Assembly (NCBI RefSeq): GCF_000010785.1
Contig: NC_013799.1
Span: 434,001-498,000 of the forward strand
Origin: Hydrogenobacter thermophilus TK-6
GTDB taxonomy: Bacteria > Aquificota > Aquificia > Aquificales > Aquificaceae
Reading direction: 5' to 3'
Length of the DNA: 64,000 nt
The notes beneath the pieces were generated by a model, which saw only the letters and a program-made list of their open reading frames with translations, did not search any database and was not told where the DNA came from. The translations under genes were made by a program, and so were the position numbers. Positions 5,827 through 15,311 of the stretch are shown one piece after another (the first letter of the stretch is position 1; each line of letters starts with the position of its first letter).

Positions 5827-6609
5827 ATGCGTATACTGCTGGTAGGAGTTGGTAATATGGGAAGGAAGTACCTGACAAAGATTACAGAGCTGGGACACAC
5901 GCCCATACTCTGCGATACGGACCCTGGCAAAAGGGTAAACGGTTTTTCCTTTTACTGTCATGTGGAGGAAGTAAAAGAGCAGGTGGATGCGGCTATAGTA
6001 GCCATAGAGCCATCCCAGCATGTTAAAGTTTCCAAACCCCTTTTAGAAATGGGTCTGCCTGTGCTCCTTGAAAAACCCCCAGCACTGAGCTACAGAGAGT
6101 TTCAGGAAATTGAGCCATACACACATCTTTACATATCAGAAATAGAAACCTTCTCCTCGTGTCTTAAATACTTTCCCGAGAAAGTGCAGAGCCTGAGTAT
6201 AGAGAGACTTGGAAGATCAAAGGGTTATGTATCACCCCTTTGGGACCTGGCGTGGCACGACCTGTACCTGCTCCAGCTGTTTTTTGAAAACATACGGATA
6301 ACGCAGGTAAAAACAGGCGAAGTTTGGGAGATTAATGGAGAGGTAGACCGTATCCCCTTTTCTCTTAAAGTTGCATGGGAGCATCCTGCACCTTCAAGAA
6401 AGTGGATAATAAACGAAGGTGAGCTAATCCTTGATTTGGCAAAAGAGGAGGTATGGGTAAAGGGAGAGCTTCTGCACAGTGAGCCAAGAGACAAGCTAAA
6501 GCTTATGATTCAAGCCTTTTTGAAGGATGAATTTAATCAAAGAAGCAGAGAAAGAGCTAAAAGAAATCTCTCACTCTTGGAGGAAGCTGAGAGCCTTCTC
6601 AGGACTTGA
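5827..6609 (+). CDS. Gfo/Idh/MocA-like NAD(P)-dependent dehydrogenase
   Basis: A 260-residue protein starting MRILLVGVGNMGRKYL, a Rossmann nucleotide-binding loop (GxGxxG). The LLEKPPAL segment matches the EKP motif of the Gfo/Idh/MocA family, and WHDLYLL carries a possible catalytic His. It is shorter than typical family members (330-400), with a reduced C-terminal domain. Substrate unknown. An upstream in-frame extension exists but lies over lysC and looks non-coding, and a -10 box sits 7 nt before this ATG. It converges with the sigma-54 activator, overlapping its 3' end by 39 nt. Confidence 0.75.
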   Translation: MRILLVGVGNMGRKYLTKITELGHTPILCDTDPGKRVNGFSFYCHVEEVKEQVDAAIVAIEPSQHVKVSKPLLEMGLPVLLEKPPALSYREFQEIEPYTHLYISEIETFSSCLKYFPEKVQSLSIERLGRSKGYVSPLWDLAWHDLYLLQLFFENIRITQVKTGEVWEINGEVDRIPFSLKVAWEHPAPSRKWIINEGELILDLAKEEVWVKGELLHSEPRDKLKLMIQAFLKDEFNQRSRERAKRNLSLLEEAESLLRT

Positions 6610-7932
6610 TGTTTTTTGGAGTATCCTCTTGAGGGTTATTCTGTTTATACCAAGCACTTTTGCTGTTCTTGAGTAATTCCTTCCAAGAAAGCTAAAAGCT
6701 TCACCCACAATAATCTTGGAGACCCTGTCCATAAGTCTGTAGTACAGGTTTCCCTCACCCTCCGTTAGAAGCCTTTTTACCTCCTCCTTTAGTGCATCTT
6801 CAAGATTTTCCTGTGAGTAATCTTGATGTTCTACTTCCAAATCTTCAGCTCTTAACACCTCCCCCTTGCACAAGGTTATGGCTCTCCTGAGGGCATTTTC
6901 AAGCTCCCTTACATTGCCAGGCCAGCTGTAAGTGAGGGCTTTTTTCAAAAAGCCTTCCGTATAACCCCTTATTCTCTTGCCTATTTCCTTGGAGAGGTTC
7001 CTCAGCATACAGTTTATCAGCAAAGGAATATCTTCCCTCCTGCTCCTAAGCGGTGGTATATGTATTTCCACAGCGCTTATCCGGTAGTAAAGGTCTTCTC
7101 TAAATAGCCCTTCTTTTACGAGCTTCTTTATATCCCTGTTGGTGGCGCAAACAAGTCTAAAATCGCAGTGAACTTCCTTCGTACTCCCAAGCCTTCTTAA
7201 CTTCTTCTCCTGAAGGACTCTCAAAAGCTTAGGCTGTATATGAAGAGGGAGGTCCCCTATTTCGTCAAGAAACAGCACACCACCTTTTGCTGATTCAATA
7301 AGCCCCTCCTTTGAGGAAAACGCTCCGGTGAAAGCTCCCTTCTCGTATCCAAAAAGCTCCGCCTCCAGCAGTTCTGGTGGTATAGCCGCGCAGTTAACTG
7401 CCACAAAGGGACCGTTCCACCTTTTGGAAGTCTTCCACAGAGCTTTGGCAAAAACCTCCTTACCTACGCCCGTCTCACCAAGAAGTAATACTGGCACATC
7501 AAGAGGTGCAGCCTTTCCTATCTTTAAAAGCACATCTCTCATCTTACCCTCAGGGTCTCCCACTATGGAGCAAAGCTCTTTACACAGCTCACCAGATAAA
7601 TTTTCCTCCTCAGGAAGTAAGATAACATCCCTTTCCCTTTCTAAACTCTCCAAACTTCTCAATAGCTCTTTCAGTTTATTGCTGCTGACTGGCTTAAAAA
7701 GCACATGGTAAAAGCCAAGACTCACAAGCTTTATGGTGTAGCCAGGTATCCTCTTACCTGTAACAGCTACAGCTATGTTTTCACCTTCAAGTAAGTCCGG
7801 AAGACAAGAGAGTCCTACGCTGTCTATGTCTACAATCACGAGGGATTTGGATATGTCCTCTGGCAGTTCTTCAACCCTTTCAAAGCCCTCAAGTCTAAAG
7901 TGTTGGTCTTTGGTGTACAGAAGCCTTTCCAT
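6571..7932 (-). CDS. sigma-54-dependent transcriptional activator, NtrC family
   Basis: A 453-residue enhancer-binding protein. Residues 1-90 resemble a receiver domain: a candidate phospho-acceptor Asp35 in VIVDID, Thr58 and Lys80 (KPV), but without the acidic pair of strand 1. The AAA+ domain has Walker A GETGVGK (152-158), the sigma-54 contact loop GAFTGA (199-204) and Walker B VLFLDEIGD. The C-terminus ends in a Fis-type helix-turn-helix (AKVLGINRITLKRIL). It is divergent from the sulfate-assimilation operon, whose start has a strong sigma-54 promoter, so it most likely activates that operon. Imperfect repeats in the shared gap may be its binding sites and could also control its own gene. 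Confidence 0.92.
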   Translation of the reverse strand: MERLLYTKDQHFRLEGFERVEELPEDISKSLVIVDIDSVGLSCLPDLLEGENIAVAVTGKRIPGYTIKLVSLGFYHVLFKPVSSNKLKELLRSLESLERERDVILLPEEENLSGELCKELCSIVGDPEGKMRDVLLKIGKAAPLDVPVLLLGETGVGKEVFAKALWKTSKRWNGPFVAVNCAAIPPELLEAELFGYEKGAFTGAFSSKEGLIESAKGGVLFLDEIGDLPLHIQPKLLRVLQEKKLRRLGSTKEVHCDFRLVCATNRDIKKLVKEGLFREDLYYRISAVEIHIPPLRSRREDIPLLINCMLRNLSKEIGKRIRGYTEGFLKKALTYSWPGNVRELENALRRAITLCKGEVLRAEDLEVEHQDYSQENLEDALKEEVKRLLTEGEGNLYYRLMDRVSKIIVGEAFSFLGRNYSRTAKVLGINRITLKRILQKTSSPEKALSFLQE

Positions 7933-8022: not shown

Positions 8023-8038
8023 TGGCACTTAGTTTGCA
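8023..8038 (+). promoter_or_regulatory. sigma-54 (-24/-12) promoter of the sulfate-assimilation operon
   Basis: TGGCAC-TTAGT-TTGCA matches the sigma-54 consensus TGGCAC-N5-TTGC at every defined position. The GG (8024-8025) and GC (8036-8037) doublets are 12 nt apart as required. The expected start of transcription, about 12 nt past the GC, lies near 8049, just before the ribosome-binding site GGAGG at 8051-8055. Confidence 0.88.
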
Positions 8039-8062
8039 TTGTATTGGACAGGAGGTAGCGCA

Positions 8063-10717
8063 ATGAGAGAGGAAGTGATTGAAAAGAATCCAAGGGAAAG
8101 GCTAAAGGCGGAAAAGCATCCCTTAGACATTCTGGAGGAACTGCCAACGATAATAGATAGAGGTTATGAAGATACACCCGAAGAAGATATGGTGAGACTT
8201 CAATGGTACGGGCTTTATCACGACAAGCCAAGGGTGGGCTACTTCCTGCTGAGGGTTAAGGTGCCTGGAGGCATACTCAATCCAGAACAGTTAAGAGTCG
8301 TGGGAGAGCTTTCCAGTAGGTTCGGAGATTACGCGGAAATAACCTTAAGACAGGATATACAGCTCCACTACATAAGGCTTGAACACTTGCCTGATGTCTT
8401 TGAGTCTTTAAAGAGTGTAAACCTTTTCCCGGTCGGTGCCTGCGGAGACACCGTCAGAAACATAACTACATGTCCTCTGTGTGGACTTGAAAAGGATGAG
8501 CTTTTTGATGTGAGGGAGTGCGTGCAGAAGCTTGAAGGTTTCTTCCACCATCCGGAAAATAGGGACTACTTCAATCTACCGAGAAAGTTCAAGATAACTG
8601 TTTCCGCATGCCCGTATCACTGCAACATGCCTGAGATGCACGACCTGGCTTTTGTAGGCACTGTCTTTGAGGGTAAAGAAGGCTTTGCGGTATGGATAGG
8701 TGGTGGATTGTCCTCCACACCGAGGATAGCAAGGAAGCTGGGCATCTTCGTAGAAAAGGAAAGGGTGCTCTCTCTGGCAAAAGCTGTCGTAGACCTCTGG
8801 AGCGAAGACCCAGAAAACAGAAAGTCCTTCGTAAAGGCGAGGTTCAAGTACATGGTGGACAGGTTAGGTGTGGAGAAAATAAAGAGCATGATTTTGGAGA
8901 GATTGGATTTTACACCGCAACCCCTTGATGAGGAGCCTTTGCCTGTAAAGAGGTACTTTCACACGGGGGTAGGAAGACAAAAACAGGAAGGCTTTTACTA
9001 CCTGGGTATTCCGCTACCAGCTGGGAGAGTGAGAGGAAGTCAGCTGTTGGCACTTGCGGAGCTTGCTCAGGAGTTTAACCTCTCCATCAGGCTATCGCAG
9101 AGGCAGAACATAATTCTGGTAAACATATCACAGGAAGACCTTAGGGAAGTGAGGGATAGAGTAAAAGAGCTTGGCTTTCACCTTGATGTTGGGGAAACAA
9201 GAGCCATATCCGTTGCTTGCACCAGCGACCCCTTCTGCAACTACTCGGTAGGTTCTGCAAAGGAGGCACTCCTTGAACTCTTGGACTATCTTGAAGAAAA
9301 GCTCGGGAAGCTTGAAGGAGTGAGTATAGGTGTTGATGGATGTCCCCACGCTTGCGCTCATCACTGGCTTAACGACATAGGACTTCAGGCAACACACCTG
9401 AGGCATCCCGATGGCTCTGTAGAAACAACTTACAATCTCGTACTGAGAGGGGGCTACGGAAGGAGAGCAAGCATAGGGAAGATAGTGGCTAAGAAGGTAC
9501 CTCTTGAGAGGGTGAAGGTTTATGTGGAAAGGCTTATCTTAGCCTTTAGGAGTTCTAAACTTGAAGAATTTTATGAGTTCGTAAACTCCAAGAGTGATGA
9601 AGAGCTTCTGAGCATTATGGAAGGCAAAGCTACTCAAGCAAAAGAGGAGGTAAAAAGGAGTGTAAAGATCCGCATATTTGGACCTCTTACGCGCTTTTCC
9701 GGTGGTCTTTCCGAGCTTGAAGTAAGTGCCAACACGGTGCGCACAGCGCTTGAGCACCTTGAAAAAGAGTTTGAGGGTTTTAAGGGGAGACTCTTTGACG
9801 AAAGGGGTGAGCTAAAGCCCTTCGTAAAAGTCTTTTTAAACGAAGAGGATGTCTCCTTCTTGAAGGGTCTTGAGACACCGCTGAAAGATGGAGATGAGCT
9901 TATGCTCTATCCCGCTCTTGCAGGAGGTTCCCACACTTTTGATGAGCTTGAACTCCATGAGCTTGCTCTGGAGTTTGAAGAAAAACCCGCACAGGAACTT
10001 TTAGTCTGGGCTATAGAGAACTTTCACCCAAGACTCTACATAGCCTGGAGTGGGCAGGTGGAGGACATGGTACTCCTTGACATGGCGTGGAGGATAAACC
10101 CAGATGTAAGAGTCTTTGCTGTGGATACGGGCAGGCTACACGAAGAGACCTACAGACTCATGCAGGAGGTGGAGGATAGGTACGGGGTTAGGGTAGAAGT
10201 CTACTTTCCTGACGCAAAGGATGTGGAAGAGCTGACGAGGAAATACGGAATTAACTGCTTTTACAAGTCCGTTGAGCTAAGACACCTCTGCTGTCATGTG
10301 AGGAAGGTAAAACCTCTTTTGAAAGCGCTATCACAGGTAGATGCTTGGATAACAGGGCTTAGGCGTGAGCAGTGGGCTAGCAGGCACAACATAATGAAGA
10401 TTGAGGTAGACCATGACCACGGACAGATAGTTAAGATAAACCCTCTTGCGGACTGGAGCGAGAGAGAGGTGTGGGAGTATATAAAGAAGAATGCCGTCCC
10501 TTATAACAAGCTTTACGAGGCGGGATACAGGAGCATAGGCTGTGAGCCTTGTACAAGACCTGTAGCACCTTTTGAGGACCCAAGAGCGGGCAGATGGTGG
10601 TGGGAGAAGGATGCACCCAAGGAGTGCGGTATGCACTGCAGTATAGAAACTGGAGGCTTTGAGAAAATAGCGGACAAAGTGATAAAGGAGGAAAAGGATG
10701 GCTCTGAGGATACTTGA
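8063..10717 (+). CDS. fusion: siroheme sulfite reductase - MoaD-like sulfur carrier - APS reductase
   Basis: An 884-residue protein with three domains. Residues 1-525 form a ferredoxin-type sulfite/nitrite reductase; the siroheme-[4Fe-4S] ligands are Cys386-x5-Cys392 and Cys427-x3-Cys431 (GCPHAC). Residues about 532-622 form a MoaD/ThiS-like beta-grasp domain ending in YPALAGG, with the diglycine at 621-622 inside the chain. Residues about 640-880 form an adenylylsulfate reductase of the CysH family with Cys743-Cys744, Cys827-x2-Cys830 (a [4Fe-4S] set, favouring APS over PAPS) and the redox Cys in ECGMHC. Together they would convert APS to sulfite and sulfite to sulfide. The ATG at 8063 has AGGAGG 7 nt upstream. 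The frame is unbroken. The role of the embedded carrier is unknown. Confidence 0.93.
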   Translation: MREEVIEKNPRERLKAEKHPLDILEELPTIIDRGYEDTPEEDMVRLQWYGLYHDKPRVGYFLLRVKVPGGILNPEQLRVVGELSSRFGDYAEITLRQDIQLHYIRLEHLPDVFESLKSVNLFPVGACGDTVRNITTCPLCGLEKDELFDVRECVQKLEGFFHHPENRDYFNLPRKFKITVSACPYHCNMPEMHDLAFVGTVFEGKEGFAVWIGGGLSSTPRIARKLGIFVEKERVLSLAKAVVDLWSEDPENRKSFVKARFKYMVDRLGVEKIKSMILERLDFTPQPLDEEPLPVKRYFHTGVGRQKQEGFYYLGIPLPAGRVRGSQLLALAELAQEFNLSIRLSQRQNIILVNISQEDLREVRDRVKELGFHLDVGETRAISVACTSDPFCNYSVGSAKEALLELLDYLEEKLGKLEGVSIGVDGCPHACAHHWLNDIGLQATHLRHPDGSVETTYNLVLRGGYGRRASIGKIVAKKVPLERVKVYVERLILAFRSSKLEEFYEFVNSKSDEELLSIMEGKATQAKEEVKRSVKIRIFGPLTRFSGGLSELEVSANTVRTALEHLEKEFEGFKGRLFDERGELKPFVKVFLNEEDVSFLKGLETPLKDGDELMLYPALAGGSHTFDELELHELALEFEEKPAQELLVWAIENFHPRLYIAWSGQVEDMVLLDMAWRINPDVRVFAVDTGRLHEETYRLMQEVEDRYGVRVEVYFPDAKDVEELTRKYGINCFYKSVELRHLCCHVRKVKPLLKALSQVDAWITGLRREQWASRHNIMKIEVDHDHGQIVKINPLADWSEREVWEYIKKNAVPYNKLYEAGYRSIGCEPCTRPVAPFEDPRAGRWWWEKDAPKECGMHCSIETGGFEKIADKVIKEEKDGSEDT

Positions 10718-10985
10718 AAGGGTAAACATAGAGAAGCTTAAGGAGGAGCTTTTTAAAAGAGGTTGGAATGAAGGCAAGTTTAATTCAAGGCAGGCTATGC
10801 TCAAAGAGTTTAATGACTACCTTTGGGTGGCAGTGCTGGAAAAAGAGCCTTACTTCCTCTCCCTACCCAAAGAAGAAAGCTCAAGAGTACATTCGGAAGG
10901 TATGAAGGCTCTAAGGGAGGAGGTGGAGAGCTTAGCCCTGACCCTTGGTTTCTCCCTACCCACCAAAGGAGGAAGCTATGCTTGA
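10698..10985 (+). CDS. small protein of the sulfate-assimilation operon, unknown function
   Basis: A 95-residue charged, largely helical protein without cysteines, signal or membrane segment. It starts at an ATG preceded by AAAGGAGGAAAAGG and overlaps the end of the fusion gene by 20 nt and the start of the permease gene by 8 nt, so it is coupled to both. I do not recognise a family. Its position between the reductase fusion and the permease suggests a role in sulfur assimilation, perhaps as a partner of the reductase; that is inference from position only. Confidence 0.75.
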   Translation: MALRILERVNIEKLKEELFKRGWNEGKFNSRQAMLKEFNDYLWVAVLEKEPYFLSLPKEESSRVHSEGMKALREEVESLALTLGFSLPTKGGSYA

Positions 10986-11727
10986 GTATTTACTTCTTGG
11001 GTTTTTTATAGCCTTTGCCATAGGACTTACAGGTGTAGGTGCTGGCACGCTTACTGCGCCAGTGCTAATACTTTTGGGACTTAACCCAGCACAAGCTGTG
11101 GGTTCAGCCCTGAGCTTCTCAACACTGGTAAAGTTTCCAGGTTTTCTATTTCACGCTCTCTATAAGAATGTTGAATACAGGTTGCTGATGTTTATGTGTT
11201 TCGGGGGCGTGCCCGGTGTTCTTCTTGGCTCTTCCCTTTTAAGCAGGCTCTCTCAGGCGGATAAACTCAAAAACCTTATTATGTTTATAATCGGTATAAC
11301 CGTTATCCTTTTAGTAATTCTCAACCTTCTTGGTACCCTCATGAAAAGGAGGATTGACTTAACAAGGTACTTTTACCTCATTCCCCTAGTATGCTTTTTC
11401 ATAGGTCTTGAGGTGGGCTTTACCTCGGCAGGTGCGGGCGCATTGGGAATGGTTTTACTGCTGTACTTTACCAGGCTTCCTCCGTCAAAAGCAGTGGGAG
11501 TAGACATAGGCTTTGGTCTTGCATGCTCTCTGACAGGGAGCTTAGCACATCTTTTGCAGGGACACACACAGCCTCATGTTTTTCTTCCCATGTCTTTGGG
11601 TGGACTCTTAGGCATATGGCTGGGCACACACCTTACGCGCCGTATAAACCCCAAACCCCTGAGAGTGGGCATATCTATGCTTCTTATCTTGGTGGCTTTT
11701 AACCTCATAAAGAGGGGGCTTTCGTGA
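10978..11727 (+). CDS. TSUP (TauE/SafE) family sulfite/sulfate permease-like membrane protein
   Basis: A 249-residue integral membrane protein with the two-fold repeat of the TSUP family: GLTGVGAGTLTAPVLILLGLNPAQAVGSAL near the N-terminus and GFTSAGAGALGMVLLLYFTRLPPSKAVGVD in the second half, with about eight hydrophobic segments. Family members move sulfite, sulfoacetate or related anions. In this operon a role in sulfate uptake or in sulfite export is likely. The ATG at 10978 is preceded by AAAGGAGG, and the end overlaps the cobA start in a TGATG. Confidence 0.88.
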   Translation: MLEYLLLGFFIAFAIGLTGVGAGTLTAPVLILLGLNPAQAVGSALSFSTLVKFPGFLFHALYKNVEYRLLMFMCFGGVPGVLLGSSLLSRLSQADKLKNLIMFIIGITVILLVILNLLGTLMKRRIDLTRYFYLIPLVCFFIGLEVGFTSAGAGALGMVLLLYFTRLPPSKAVGVDIGFGLACSLTGSLAHLLQGHTQPHVFLPMSLGGLLGIWLGTHLTRRINPKPLRVGISMLLILVAFNLIKRGLS

Positions 11728-12494
11728 TGGGTAAGGTGTACATAGTAGGTGCGGGACCTGGAGATCCGGAGCTTTTAACCCTAAAAGCTTACAGACTCAT
11801 AAAGTCTGCAGATGTAGTGCTTTACGACAGACTGGTAAATCCAGAGATCCTTCTACTGGCTAAACCAGAATGCCAACTCATCTATGTGGGAAAAGAGGAG
11901 GGAAAGCACACCCTAGAGCAGGAGAAGATTAACGAGCTTTTGCTCCACTATGCTCACACAAAAGAGGTTGTGGTAAGGCTAAAGGGTGGAGACCCCTTTG
12001 TCTTTGGAAGGGGTGGTGAGGAGGCTCTCTTTTTGGCAGAGCACGGGGTGGAGGTTGAGGTTGTGCCAGGTATAAGCTCAGCCACAGGGGTGCCTGCGTA
12101 TGCGGGCATACCCATAACCTTTAGAGGATTATCTTCTTCCTTTGCAGTCATCACAGGGCACGAAGACCCAAAGAAGGAAAGAACGAGCGTAGACTGGGAG
12201 AGCCTGAAAGGTATAAATACCTTAGTCTTTCTGATGGCGGTTTCCAACAGGAAGGAGATAGCCAGGAGGCTCATAGAGGTGGGTAGGGACCCAAAGGAGC
12301 CTGTGGCGTTTATAGAGAGAGGCACCACCAGAGAGCAGAGGGTGGTGATAACAGACCTTTATGAGCTTGCCAACTACCCACCTGAGGTAAACCCTCCTGC
12401 TCTTATGGTGGTAGGTCAGGTGATAAAACTTAGAAAGCTTATATCCTTTAAGGAGGTGGTAGCATGCTTTTACCCCACGGTGGAGAACTTGTAA
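11727..12494 (+). CDS. cobA: uroporphyrinogen-III C-methyltransferase
   Basis: A 255-residue SAM-dependent tetrapyrrole methylase that makes precorrin-2, the precursor of siroheme. Motifs: VYIVGAGPGDPELLTLKA, YDRLVNPEIL, RLKGGDPFVFGRGGEE and VPGISSATGVPAYAGIP. It lacks the dehydrogenase/ferrochelatase domain of CysG, so a separate enzyme must finish siroheme. Its place between the permease and sat fits a role in supplying siroheme for the sulfite reductase domain. The ATG at 11727 follows AGAGGGGG and overlaps the upstream stop codon. Confidence 0.95.
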   Translation: MGKVYIVGAGPGDPELLTLKAYRLIKSADVVLYDRLVNPEILLLAKPECQLIYVGKEEGKHTLEQEKINELLLHYAHTKEVVVRLKGGDPFVFGRGGEEALFLAEHGVEVEVVPGISSATGVPAYAGIPITFRGLSSSFAVITGHEDPKKERTSVDWESLKGINTLVFLMAVSNRKEIARRLIEVGRDPKEPVAFIERGTTREQRVVITDLYELANYPPEVNPPALMVVGQVIKLRKLISFKEVVACFYPTVENL

Positions 12495-13615
12495 ACAGGG
12501 TAGTCCCGGAAAGGGAAAGAGCAAAAGTTTTGGAAGAGGCAAAGAGCTATCCAAGCCTTGTGGTAGATACAGATGCTCTCCTGGACATTGAGAATATAGC
12601 TGTAGGCGTCTTTTCACCCTTAAAAGGTTTTATGACTCACGAAGAACTCCTTTCCGTAGCTTATCATATGAGCCTACCGGGCGGTGTTGTGTGGAGCTTG
12701 CCTGTTTTACTCCAGCTTAGGGAAAAGCCTGAGGTGGATGGAAGGGTTGCTCTGAAGGATACAAGCGGGCGGATAAAAGCCATTGTGGATGTAAAGGAAG
12801 TATACAGGATTGACCTTCCCCTCATAGCCAAGCTTGTGTGGGGAACGGAAAGTGAGGAGCATCCGGGTGTTAAGCTCTTCTATTCAAAGGGTGAGTGGGC
12901 TGTAGGAGGAGATGTTTGGCTTTTAGAGAAGGTGGAATTTCCCTTCAGGGACTGGATACTTACACCTGAAGAAACCAGAAAGATATTTGAGTACAGAGGA
13001 TGGAAGACCGTAGTAGGCTTTCAGACAAGGAACGCACCCCACAGGGCGCACGAGTACCTGCAGAGGATAGGCTTGGAAGTTGCGGATGGACTTTTTGTAA
13101 ACCCAGTATTGGGCTGGAGAAAGTCCGACGACTTTGACCCACTTACCGTCTTAGAAGCTTACGAATATCTGATAAACAGCTATTACCCCAAAAATAGAGT
13201 CTTGCTTTCTGGACTTGCCACCGCCATGAGGTACGCAGGACCAAGGGAAGCTGTGTTTCACGCCATAGTTAGAAAGAACTTTGGATGCACACACTTCATA
13301 GTGGGCAGGGACCACGCAGGAGTGGGAGACTTTTACGACCCCTACGAAGCCCACAGAATATTTGACAGACTGCCTGAAGACATAGGTATAGAGATCATAA
13401 AGGTTTCCGCAGTCTTTTACTGCAGGTCCTGTGATTGTATTGCCTCGGAAAAAAGCTGTGGACACGAGGAAAATCAAAGGGTTTATGTTAGCATGACAAA
13501 AATAAGAAACATGCTCAGAGAAGGTAAGTTCCCGCCTGAGGAGATGATAAGGAGAGATGTGGCTGAGCTTCTAATAAAAAGGAGAACAAAAAGCTTGACG
13601 AATGTTCATTCATAA
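12464..13615 (+). CDS. sat: sulfate adenylyltransferase (ATP sulfurylase)
   Basis: A 383-residue Sat-type ATP sulfurylase that activates sulfate with ATP to APS, the substrate of the APS reductase domain encoded three genes upstream. The active-site motifs QTRN (187-190) and HRAH (193-196) and the GRDHAGVGDFYDPY loop are present. A C-terminal four-Cys cluster (CRSCDCIASEKSCGH) is like the zinc-binding site of thermophilic Sat. The start ATG at 12464 follows AAGGAGGTGG and overlaps cobA by 31 nt. No APS kinase domain is attached, agreeing with direct APS reduction. Confidence 0.96.
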   Translation: MLLPHGGELVNRVVPERERAKVLEEAKSYPSLVVDTDALLDIENIAVGVFSPLKGFMTHEELLSVAYHMSLPGGVVWSLPVLLQLREKPEVDGRVALKDTSGRIKAIVDVKEVYRIDLPLIAKLVWGTESEEHPGVKLFYSKGEWAVGGDVWLLEKVEFPFRDWILTPEETRKIFEYRGWKTVVGFQTRNAPHRAHEYLQRIGLEVADGLFVNPVLGWRKSDDFDPLTVLEAYEYLINSYYPKNRVLLSGLATAMRYAGPREAVFHAIVRKNFGCTHFIVGRDHAGVGDFYDPYEAHRIFDRLPEDIGIEIIKVSAVFYCRSCDCIASEKSCGHEENQRVYVSMTKIRNMLREGKFPPEEMIRRDVAELLIKRRTKSLTNVHS

Positions 13616-13629: not shown

Positions 13630-14826
13630 ATGGAACACTTTGATGTAGTTATCGTAGGTAGCGGTCCGGGAGGTTATATGAGCGCCAAACTCCTCCTTGA
13701 AAGGGGAAAAAGTGTGGCTCTCGTGGAAAAGTCAGTCTTTGGTGGAGTTTGTCTGAACGCAGGCTGTATTCCCAAGGAGGGACTCTACAAGTTAGCTCTT
13801 GAAAAAAGTAAACCCAGATGGAAGGTAGCAGTTCAAATGGTGCAAGGAAAGGTGATTGAGATAAGAGATACCTCATTGAAGGCTCTGCTCTCAAAGGGAC
13901 TGACTTATGTGGAGGGTGATGGAGAGCTCATAGACGAAAGGGTTATAAAGGTAGGGAACAGGAGGCTTACCGCTTCGCACATAATCCTTGCCTGCGGTTC
14001 TAAGCAGAGGGAGCCGGGTATATCTCCTGAGGATGTTTTGAGAGGATGGGCTATTCCCAAGAACAATGTGTGCATAGTGGGTGGTGGAGCCGCAGGTTGT
14101 GAGCTTGCCTTCATACTTAGTTCCTTTGGTTTTAAGGTATACCTTGTGAGAGAGGATACGGTTCTGAAAGGCTACAGAAACATACCGGAAGAGTTTGCTC
14201 TCAAGCTGGAAGATGCATTAGAGAGGTGTGGTGTCAAGCTGGTAGAAAATACAAAAAATGTGGATGCGGACCTTGTAATAAGAGCTACAGGTAGAATACC
14301 TAACTTCTGCCAGGAGAGGTTTCCTTTCGTGGCTGTAGATGAAAGGGGTTTTGTAAGGACAGACAGTTTTCTGGAGACGGACACAAAAGGAATATTTGCG
14401 GTAGGTGATATAGTACCACCAATGGGTGCTGGCTACGCCTTTGAGAAGGCAAGGGTGGCAGTACGCAGCATACTTTACGATAAAGAAAGGGTTTTTGACC
14501 CAAGGAAAGTACCTGTGATCATCTCCTCCGCCTATCAGATAGGTTTTGTGGGTGATGTCAAGGATGCCAAAATCTTCGTTACTAAACCATTGGGCACAAA
14601 TCCCAAAGCTTATGTTACCGAAAACGATGGCATTATCAGTGTAGGTTTTGATGATTCGGGTAGGCTCGTTTACTGCTGTTTGATAGGCAGGGAGGTAGGC
14701 GAAATACTTAACCTGTGTGCCACCCTTTTGGGGAAAAACTTGGAGGAACATTTAAGCTTTGCTCATCCATCCTATGGTGAGATAATAAATGAGATACTAT
14801 CTATAAAGCAGGAGGTGTGCAGATGA
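13630..14826 (+). CDS. dihydrolipoamide dehydrogenase-like flavoprotein disulfide reductase
   Basis: A 398-residue class I pyridine nucleotide-disulfide oxidoreductase. It has the FAD loop VVIVGSGPGGYMSA, the redox disulfide motif GGVCLNAGCIPKEGLY (Cys-x4-Cys), a second NAD(P)-binding loop IVGGGAAGCELAF, the FAD motif GIFAVGDI, and a C-terminal dimerisation domain with the His-Glu pair in AHPSYGEIINE. All catalytic parts are present, although it is about 60 residues shorter than a typical Lpd. No lipoylated partner is in the window. It shares an operator-like palindrome with the hydrogenase and nickel operons, suggesting a redox role linked to hydrogen use. Confidence 0.85.
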   Translation: MEHFDVVIVGSGPGGYMSAKLLLERGKSVALVEKSVFGGVCLNAGCIPKEGLYKLALEKSKPRWKVAVQMVQGKVIEIRDTSLKALLSKGLTYVEGDGELIDERVIKVGNRRLTASHIILACGSKQREPGISPEDVLRGWAIPKNNVCIVGGGAAGCELAFILSSFGFKVYLVREDTVLKGYRNIPEEFALKLEDALERCGVKLVENTKNVDADLVIRATGRIPNFCQERFPFVAVDERGFVRTDSFLETDTKGIFAVGDIVPPMGAGYAFEKARVAVRSILYDKERVFDPRKVPVIISSAYQIGFVGDVKDAKIFVTKPLGTNPKAYVTENDGIISVGFDDSGRLVYCCLIGREVGEILNLCATLLGKNLEEHLSFAHPSYGEIINEILSIKQEVCR

Positions 14827-15311
14827 AGGACCAGGAAGTGCTCTCCAGAGTGCGCATATTTCTAAGGGAAGAAGGTGTTATAGTCCCAAAGGGACCAATA
14901 AAGGAGTTTTACTCCCAGCTTATGAAGCTCTCTGGTTTTGGTATAGGCGGACTGCTCGTTTTCTCAGGAAAAAAGGCAGGTAAGATGGCTGGCACATACA
15001 TAAAGAGCATAGTTGGTGATGAGAACCCATCAGTGGAAAAAGTTGCGGATTATGTGAGTGCCTTTCTTGAGGAGACGGGCATATGTAAGGTTGAGAACTA
15101 CGAACTGTCCGATTCACAGATAATCTTTAAGGTTAAAGATTCCATATTTGCACAGGATGTGGATAACAAAAAACCCGTATGCATGCCACTCAGCGGTGCT
15201 TTAGCTGGTGTTTTTGAAGAAGTTACAAAGAAAGAGTGGGATTGTAGAGAAATTGAGTGCCAGGCTCAGGGAAAGGAGAGGTGTATCTTTGAGATAAAAC
15301 TCAAACACTGA
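14823..15311 (+). CDS. V4R (4-vinyl reductase) domain protein
   Basis: A 162-residue protein. The C-terminal signature CREIECQAQGKERCIFEIK is typical of V4R domains, a small-molecule-binding fold with conserved cysteines, found in regulators such as XylR and in bacteriochlorophyll enzymes. There is no DNA-binding or enzymatic domain attached, so it may be a ligand or metal sensor. The ATG at 14823 overlaps the flavoprotein stop codon (ATGA) and has AGGAGG upstream, so the two are one operon. It converges with the NHL gene with an 11-nt overlap. Confidence 0.85.
   Translation: MKDQEVLSRVRIFLREEGVIVPKGPIKEFYSQLMKLSGFGIGGLLVFSGKKAGKMAGTYIKSIVGDENPSVEKVADYVSAFLEETGICKVENYELSDSQIIFKVKDSIFAQDVDNKKPVCMPLSGALAGVFEEVTKKEWDCREIECQAQGKERCIFEIKLKH

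Follow-up and report, generated by a model that had tools for sequence, protein, structure and literature searches.

The Fusion Gene and Its Operon

The window analyzed here is a stretch of 64,000 nucleotides from Hydrogenobacter thermophilus TK-6, whose genome is a single contig of 1,743,135 bp. Positions 8063-10717 of its forward strand form one uninterrupted frame of 884 amino acids, with the ATG at 8063, the stop codon at 10715-10717, and an AGGAGGT ribosome-binding site at 8050-8056. The encoded chain joins a sulfite reductase (SiR), a CysO/MoaD-type carrier, and an assimilatory APS reductase (CysH). The gene and its surroundings comprise the following features:

6571..7932, reverse strand: sigma-54 activator, divergent, probable regulator of the operon (domain match and position)
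8023..8037, forward strand: operon promoter of the sigma-54 type, TGGCAC-N5-TTGC (the sole match in 64 kb, with 0.10 expected)
8063..10717, forward strand: SiR-carrier-CysH fusion gene, 884 aa (open frame, Pfam/NCBIfam; single frames in nine Aquificaceae genomes)
10698..10985, forward strand: 95-aa protein of no known family, overlapping the end of the fusion gene (open frame)
10945..11727, forward strand: TauE/SafE-type permease of the sulfite exporter family (Pfam)
11724..12494, forward strand: uroporphyrinogen-III methyltransferase (CobA), siroheme synthesis (Pfam, NCBIfam)
12464..13615, forward strand: ATP sulfurylase, which makes APS (Pfam, NCBIfam)

The presence of the 95-aa protein, the TauE permease, CobA, and ATP sulfurylase marks the operon as one of sulfate assimilation. 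Its control appears to be shared among relatives. The promoter motif TGGCAY-N5-TTGC was found at each of the 13 Aquificaceae loci inspected, also where SiR-carrier and cysH are split into two genes, and a sigma-54 activator adjoins the fusion or split gene in 12 of the 12 neighbours tested. Aquificaceae keep the 95-aa protein in the operon, as do relatives without a carrier (Bacterium HR37, Solincola), and this conservation makes it a possible subunit or partner of SiR or CysH. Positions 14817-15311, where the operon region ends, encode a V4R-domain protein with a weak match to MsvR.

Within the fusion gene, all on the forward strand, the following parts can be told apart:

8063..9562: siroheme/4Fe-4S sulfite reductase domain of the NirA/SirA type, residues 1-500 (Pfam and fold match)
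9563..9661: linker between SiR and carrier, residues 501-533, variable and predicted to be partly disordered (pLDDT below 50 at 525-531; 1.8 changes per site)
9662..9928: CysO/MoaD-type beta-grasp carrier domain, residues 534-622 (Pfam, closest solved sequences, confident strands and helices)
9908..9928: conserved tail YPALAGG, residues 616-622 (its codons GCAGGAGGT double as the cysH ribosome-binding site in split relatives)
9929..9940: fast-evolving junction SHTF, residues 623-626, with the proposed cut between Gly622 and Ser623 (pLDDT below 50 at 619-626)
9941..10645: assimilatory APS reductase (CysH) domain, residues 627-861, with CC...CxxC and ECGMHC (TIGR02055 above cut-off; fold match)

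That three domains share one frame, as the first-pass annotation had it, is confirmed by Pfam and NCBIfam, with the word intact holding at the level of sequence motifs. Pfam matches are found for NIR_SIR (E 4e-51), NIR_SIR_ferr, and PAPS_reduct (E 4e-51), as well as for ThiS (PF02597) at residues 536-622 (E 5e-11, over cut-off), and the chain scores above the cut-offs of both TIGR02055 (thioredoxin-dependent APS reductase) and NF002537. The SiR domain contains two NIR_SIR and ferredoxin-like half domains with all four 4Fe-4S/siroheme cysteines, and its best fold match is M. tuberculosis NirA (1zj8; TM 0.86 by target). It falls below the cut-offs of the NCBIfam sulfite- and nitrite-reductase models alike; sulfite, rather than nitrite, is the probable substrate given the gene context (APS reductase, TauE, CobA, and ATP sulfurylase). 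The CysH domain matches the fold of 2goy (TM 0.92 by target). Cys386, Cys392, Cys427, and Cys431 of SiR, the ALAGG at 618-622, and Cys743, Cys744, Cys827, Cys830, and ECGMHC of CysH, all listed at first reading, are found in the chain and do not vary across the Aquificaceae fusions aligned. The identification of the middle domain as a CysO/MoaD-type carrier is likewise supported, both by the ThiS match and by its closest solved sequences, the CysO proteins 4n6e_B and 3dwg_C. Residues 534-622 have the predicted beta-grasp fold ending in Gly-Gly that is expected of such carriers; the free C-terminal Gly-Gly also expected of them is absent from the nascent chain, in which the diglycine is internal and followed by SHTF.

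Structure prediction suggests that the diglycine lies in an exposed, disordered hinge. An AlphaFold model built from 60 sequences (mean pLDDT 87) is confident for SiR, carrier, and CysH and drops below 50 at residues 525-531 and 619-624, and a second, weak model built from fused sequences only (mean pLDDT 63) again falls below 50 at 619-626, both resting on shallow alignments. A buried Gly-Gly, which would have spoken for a mere linker domain, is thus not what either model predicts.

Distribution of Fused and Split Forms

Among 136 Aquificota genomes, nine, all Aquificaceae and representing three genera, encode the fusion as a full-length single frame at 70-80% identity. The domain order sought in other Aquificales is thus recovered, and an assembly or sequencing error, or chance, can be dismissed as the source of the fusion. 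The MAGs L064 and L065 hold further full-length single-frame fusions. One genome (G038) carries two divergent fusion copies (one at L060 4790-7438), and another (G048) has a second copy that is partial and cut by the contig end (L061 3820-4869). In four other Aquificaceae genomes among the 136, the same parts are arranged as two genes, SiR-carrier followed by cysH.

A wider scan of 84,980 species genomes for SiR-carrier chains finds SiR-carriers with a separate cysH next to them in Chloroflexota, Actinomycetota, Acidobacteriota (Pyrinomonas), Armatimonadota, and Rhodothermus. Of these chains, nearly all terminate exactly at [AS]GG, and a few carry 2-5 extra residues; two-residue tails past the diglycine outside Aquificaceae include GGAF, GGGA, GGGC, and GGAC. 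About 41 more loci in the scan encode a carrier-free SiR, usually with cysH adjoining. A single Anaerolineae MAG (L069/G139; one of 298 genomes sampled in the class) has a triple fusion of its own, with a linker of about 30 residues after AISGG. In three Anaerolineae relatives an in-frame TGA separates the parts, and this fusion is therefore explained by a lost stop codon; it arose separately from that of Aquificaceae.

Origin of the Junction

Since relatives both within and outside Aquificaceae are split, the comparison of gene sequences suggests that the split state is ancestral. The SiR-carriers of the split Aquificaceae genes end in AGG-VS, AGG-AL, or AGG-VDNEV. Their diglycine codons, GCA/GCG-GGA-GGT, form the Shine-Dalgarno sequence of cysH, the ATG of which overlaps the SiR-carrier stop codon (for example, GCAGGAGGTGTGTCATGAGG...). 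A small frame change joins the two genes in the fusions, and the window gene reads GCAGGAGGT-TCCCACACT-TTTGATGAG. The split relatives therefore show how a ribosome-binding site inside Gly-Gly codons could become a protein fusion. In one clade of fusions (L011, L060, L012) and in the partial copy L061, an ATG (read as SPM or APM) survives in frame six bases downstream of GGAGGT and could serve as an internal start for CysH. The window gene has no such start, because the ATG position reads ACT and no in-frame start follows the motif.

The diglycine itself appears to be kept as protein. On the tree of eight fusions, the tail YPALAGG has undergone 18 silent nucleotide changes and no amino-acid change, whereas the four junction residues that follow have undergone 10 amino-acid changes. 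Over the carrier core the mean is 1.1 changes per site, and each of the 76 seven-residue windows in it contains at least one change. In several fusions, such as L006, L009, and L010, the AGGAGGT is broken (the codons being GGT-GGT, GGA-GGC, or GGT-GGC) and Gly-Gly remains, which rules out retention solely as the cysH ribosome-binding site and indicates that the protein tail, not an RNA signal, is conserved. Loss of the diglycine or of the ubiquitin-like fold from fused orthologs was looked for and not found.

The attachment of a carrier to SiR has its own history. In the SiR tree, Aquificaceae SiR-carriers group next to SiRs without a carrier and are separated from the other SiR-carrier clade, and a single origin is rejected when all carrier-bearing SiRs are constrained together (190 log units worse, p-AU 8e-7). 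On this tree the carrier requires two label changes, as does the CysH fusion, and both gains therefore look convergent; one SiR-carrier gain with many losses may be an alternative to two gains. For the source of the carrier domain, its own tree accepts both candidates, with p-AU 0.63 for the local free carrier and 0.57 for other SiR-carriers.

Carrier Machinery Encoded in the Genome

The first-pass annotation had called for a search for JAMM protease and MoeB/ThiF-like genes, and the genome contains one of each: a JAMM protease with a complete active-site motif (HSHPDHPDRPSAFDEE) and a MoeB-like E1 that lacks a rhodanese domain. CysM is present with an NCBIfam match over cut-off, as is a stand-alone CysO-like carrier, the closest solved relatives of which are again CysO proteins and the own tail of which reads GG-LSDI. 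Thus CysM, a CysO-like carrier, JAMM, and E1, the full set of a CysO-CysM-Mec system, occur together in one genome. In this genome (L056 5821-7250) and in one other (G057), the JAMM gene and the end of the aspartate-semialdehyde dehydrogenase gene overlap, whereas in most relatives JAMM has other neighbours. The CysM gene (L153 835-2388) has a precorrin-2 dehydrogenase-like (siroheme) gene as its neighbour, which ties cysteine synthesis to that of siroheme.

In the 23 stand-alone carriers compared (22 from Aquificaceae and one from Aquificota family f2), PAIAGG is invariant, preceded by IV in 22 of the 23 (IVPAIAGG) and by II in that of f2 (IIPAIAGG). They end with zero to six unrelated residues after Gly-Gly (LSDI, YLM, KLRV, SKIYPF, SLRET, and others; L058 5808-6095 and L192-L211). 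Such arbitrary tails imply that some enzyme must remove whatever follows the diglycine, for which JAMM is the obvious candidate. The occurrence of JAMM is uninformative in this respect, as the protease is about equally common with plain SiR (26 of 27 genomes) and with SiR-carrier (21 of 23). No JAMM or E1 gene was found beside the fusion operon or SiR-carrier loci elsewhere in the neighbourhoods searched.

The machinery also bears on which amino acid the carrier might serve. In Wolinella, the HcyS/HcyD/HcyF system comprises a carrier linked to sulfite reduction, a JAMM protease, and an E1, and an analogous route to homocysteine had been suggested for the present chain. The analogy is not borne out: the genome has no match over cut-off to PF01053 (the MetY/MetB/MetC family; controls positive in 14 of 14), and HcyBio was not found in it. 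Strong PF01053 matches (E < 1e-30) are confined to family f3 of Aquificota, with no true match in f1 and f2. Family f3 is also without a clear JAMM. Since CysM and a CysO-like carrier are present and PF01053 is absent, a route to cysteine is likelier than one to homocysteine.

Proposed Processing of the Chain and Rival Explanations

We propose that the chain is made as a precursor, with a CysO-type carrier joined to the C-terminal end of SiR and with CysH attached beyond the diglycine, much as in a ubiquitin precursor. JAMM would most likely cut after Gly622, giving a CysH-side N-terminus of SHTFDELELHELALEF. The cut would free CysH and leave SiR with a built-in carrier ending in free Gly-Gly, the end of which the MoeB-like E1 would adenylate. 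Sulfide made by the attached SiR, or a persulfide, would then turn this end into a thiocarboxylate, and the sulfur would be handed on, most likely to CysM as the acceptor in cysteine synthesis. The steps that we infer are the cleavage, JAMM as its agent, the thiocarboxylate, SiR as the direct source of sulfur, and CysM as acceptor. Taken as a whole, this precursor reading is judged somewhat better than an even prospect. It is also plausible, but tentatively so, that the polyprotein cut at an internal diglycine allows SiR to load nascent sulfide onto its own tail, APS-derived sulfur thus passing from sulfite to a protein-bound thiocarboxylate without free sulfide, and that this design arose at least twice. 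The fused carrier would not be the sole route in either case, because a stand-alone CysO-like carrier is retained in the genome as well. Several observations count against a precursor: JAMM and E1 lie outside the operon, a folded enzyme lies within a few residues of the candidate cut site, and the E1 has no rhodanese domain.

Whether the chain is cut after Gly-Gly or holds the carrier as a tethered arm between two enzymes was left undecided at first reading, and of the two, cutting fits better with split SiR-carriers that stop at or near the diglycine, with the arbitrary tails of stand-alone carriers, and with MoaD-MoaE fusions cut by JAMM. JAMM-processed fusions have their internal diglycine at an exposed hinge, and the predicted disorder suggests the same position for the present one. 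An uncut chain, in which the carrier tethers or docks SiR and CysH and binds E1 or CysM without forming a thiocarboxylate, its tail being kept for binding, is accordingly given a minor place and seems unlikely. SiR and CysH do act in successive steps, fusion fixes their stoichiometry at 1:1, the junction spans only about four residues, and JAMM is encoded outside the operon. However, binding alone needs no exact Gly-Gly, yet the diglycine is invariant with silent changes only; SiR-carrier relatives expose it at or near the C-terminus; and most other phyla have no covalent link to CysH, so that a tether is not needed. The in-frame ATG kept after GGAGGT in one fused clade and in paralogs (L011, L060, L012, L061) would also agree with a near-neutral frame accident, whereby some CysH and carrier come from general proteolysis or CysH comes from an internal start at the old ribosome-binding site. 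This is improbable given that the window gene has ACT for ATG and no in-frame start after the motif, that AGGAGGT is lost in L006, L009, and L010, and that the fusion has been kept across three genera and has arisen twice.

Two further explanations give the carrier another partner. The SiR-carrier could act as a ubiquitin-like modifier, with Gly-Gly conjugated to lysines or other proteins after release of CysH and JAMM reversing the bond, as in sampylation. The stand-alone carrier scores above the SAMP1 cut-off of NCBIfam, the only NCBIfam match of JAMM is to desampylase (below cut-off), and archaeal SAMP1 with JAMM regulates enzymes (PMC4443979). Nevertheless, a redox enzyme of 620 aa is an unlikely modifier, the operon context is purely that of sulfate assimilation, and the closest solved carriers are CysO sulfur donors, leaving this explanation very little probability. 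A Wolinella-type route, in which the carrier feeds O-acetylhomoserine sulfhydrylase, is just as improbable: Wolinella-type operons do group SiR, carrier, JAMM, and E1 genes (PMC1779556), and the JAMM gene here lies beside that for aspartate-semialdehyde dehydrogenase, but the absence of PF01053 from the genome described above leaves the route without its enzyme.

Relation to Known Systems

The joining of sulfate reduction and sulfide carriage in one polypeptide had been put forward as a new design, which holds in part. A ThiS/MoaD domain on the C-terminus of sulfite reductase has been described in Nocardioides and Acidothermus, and JAB peptidases have been predicted to free fused carriers (Iyer, Burroughs and Aravind, 2006; PMC1779556). 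The two-domain fusion is thus published, and SiR is likewise followed there by a ThiS/MoaD-like domain. However, the carrier ends the chain in Nocardioides and Acidothermus, whereas the Aquificaceae chain continues past the diglycine into APS reductase, and the SiR tree gives the Aquificaceae SiR-carrier an origin separate from the other SiR-carrier clade found here. Relative to the literature searched, the new elements are the additional domain at the end of the chain, the placement of the diglycine inside it, and how widespread the family is, and no report of a three-part SiR-carrier-CysH chain was found in the open-access literature. Added here are the CysH extension and its recurrence, the wide and convergent occurrence of SiR-carriers, the origin of the junction from a ribosome-binding site, and selection on the internal diglycine.

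In the MoaD-MoaE fusions, too, a diglycine inside the chain separates a carrier from the enzyme that follows it. DRJAMM cuts the Deinococcus fusion DR2607 to leave a C-terminal Gly (PMC8832034), and M. tuberculosis MoaX complements moaD and moaE mutants, with cleavage assumed (PMC3227635). The present chain differs in that its partners are SiR and CysH, the carrier is also held N-terminally, and cleavage is deduced from comparison. A CysO-like carrier, E1, JAMM, and CysM are all encoded here as in the CysO-CysM-Mec+-MoeZ pathway of M. tuberculosis (PMC3227635), from which the system departs in having an E1 without rhodanese and one carrier copy inside SiR. The source of the sulfur on the carrier in CysO-type cysteine synthesis was called unknown in 2011 (PMC3227635); a carrier built into SiR, twice independently, would name that source, and a single purified protein suffices to test it. 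The Wolinella HcyS/HcyD/HcyF system is set apart by a MetY-family enzyme, which is absent here.

Ubiquitin precursors carry an extension beyond Gly76. In archaea, CsRpn11 removes nine residues after the Gly-Gly of CsUb (PMC6043591). These precursors likewise consist of a beta-grasp domain with an extension past the diglycine, whereas the extension here is a metabolic enzyme of 262 residues, and if JAMM cuts it, the Aquificaceae chain provides a substrate of this protease that occurs naturally in an autotroph available in culture.
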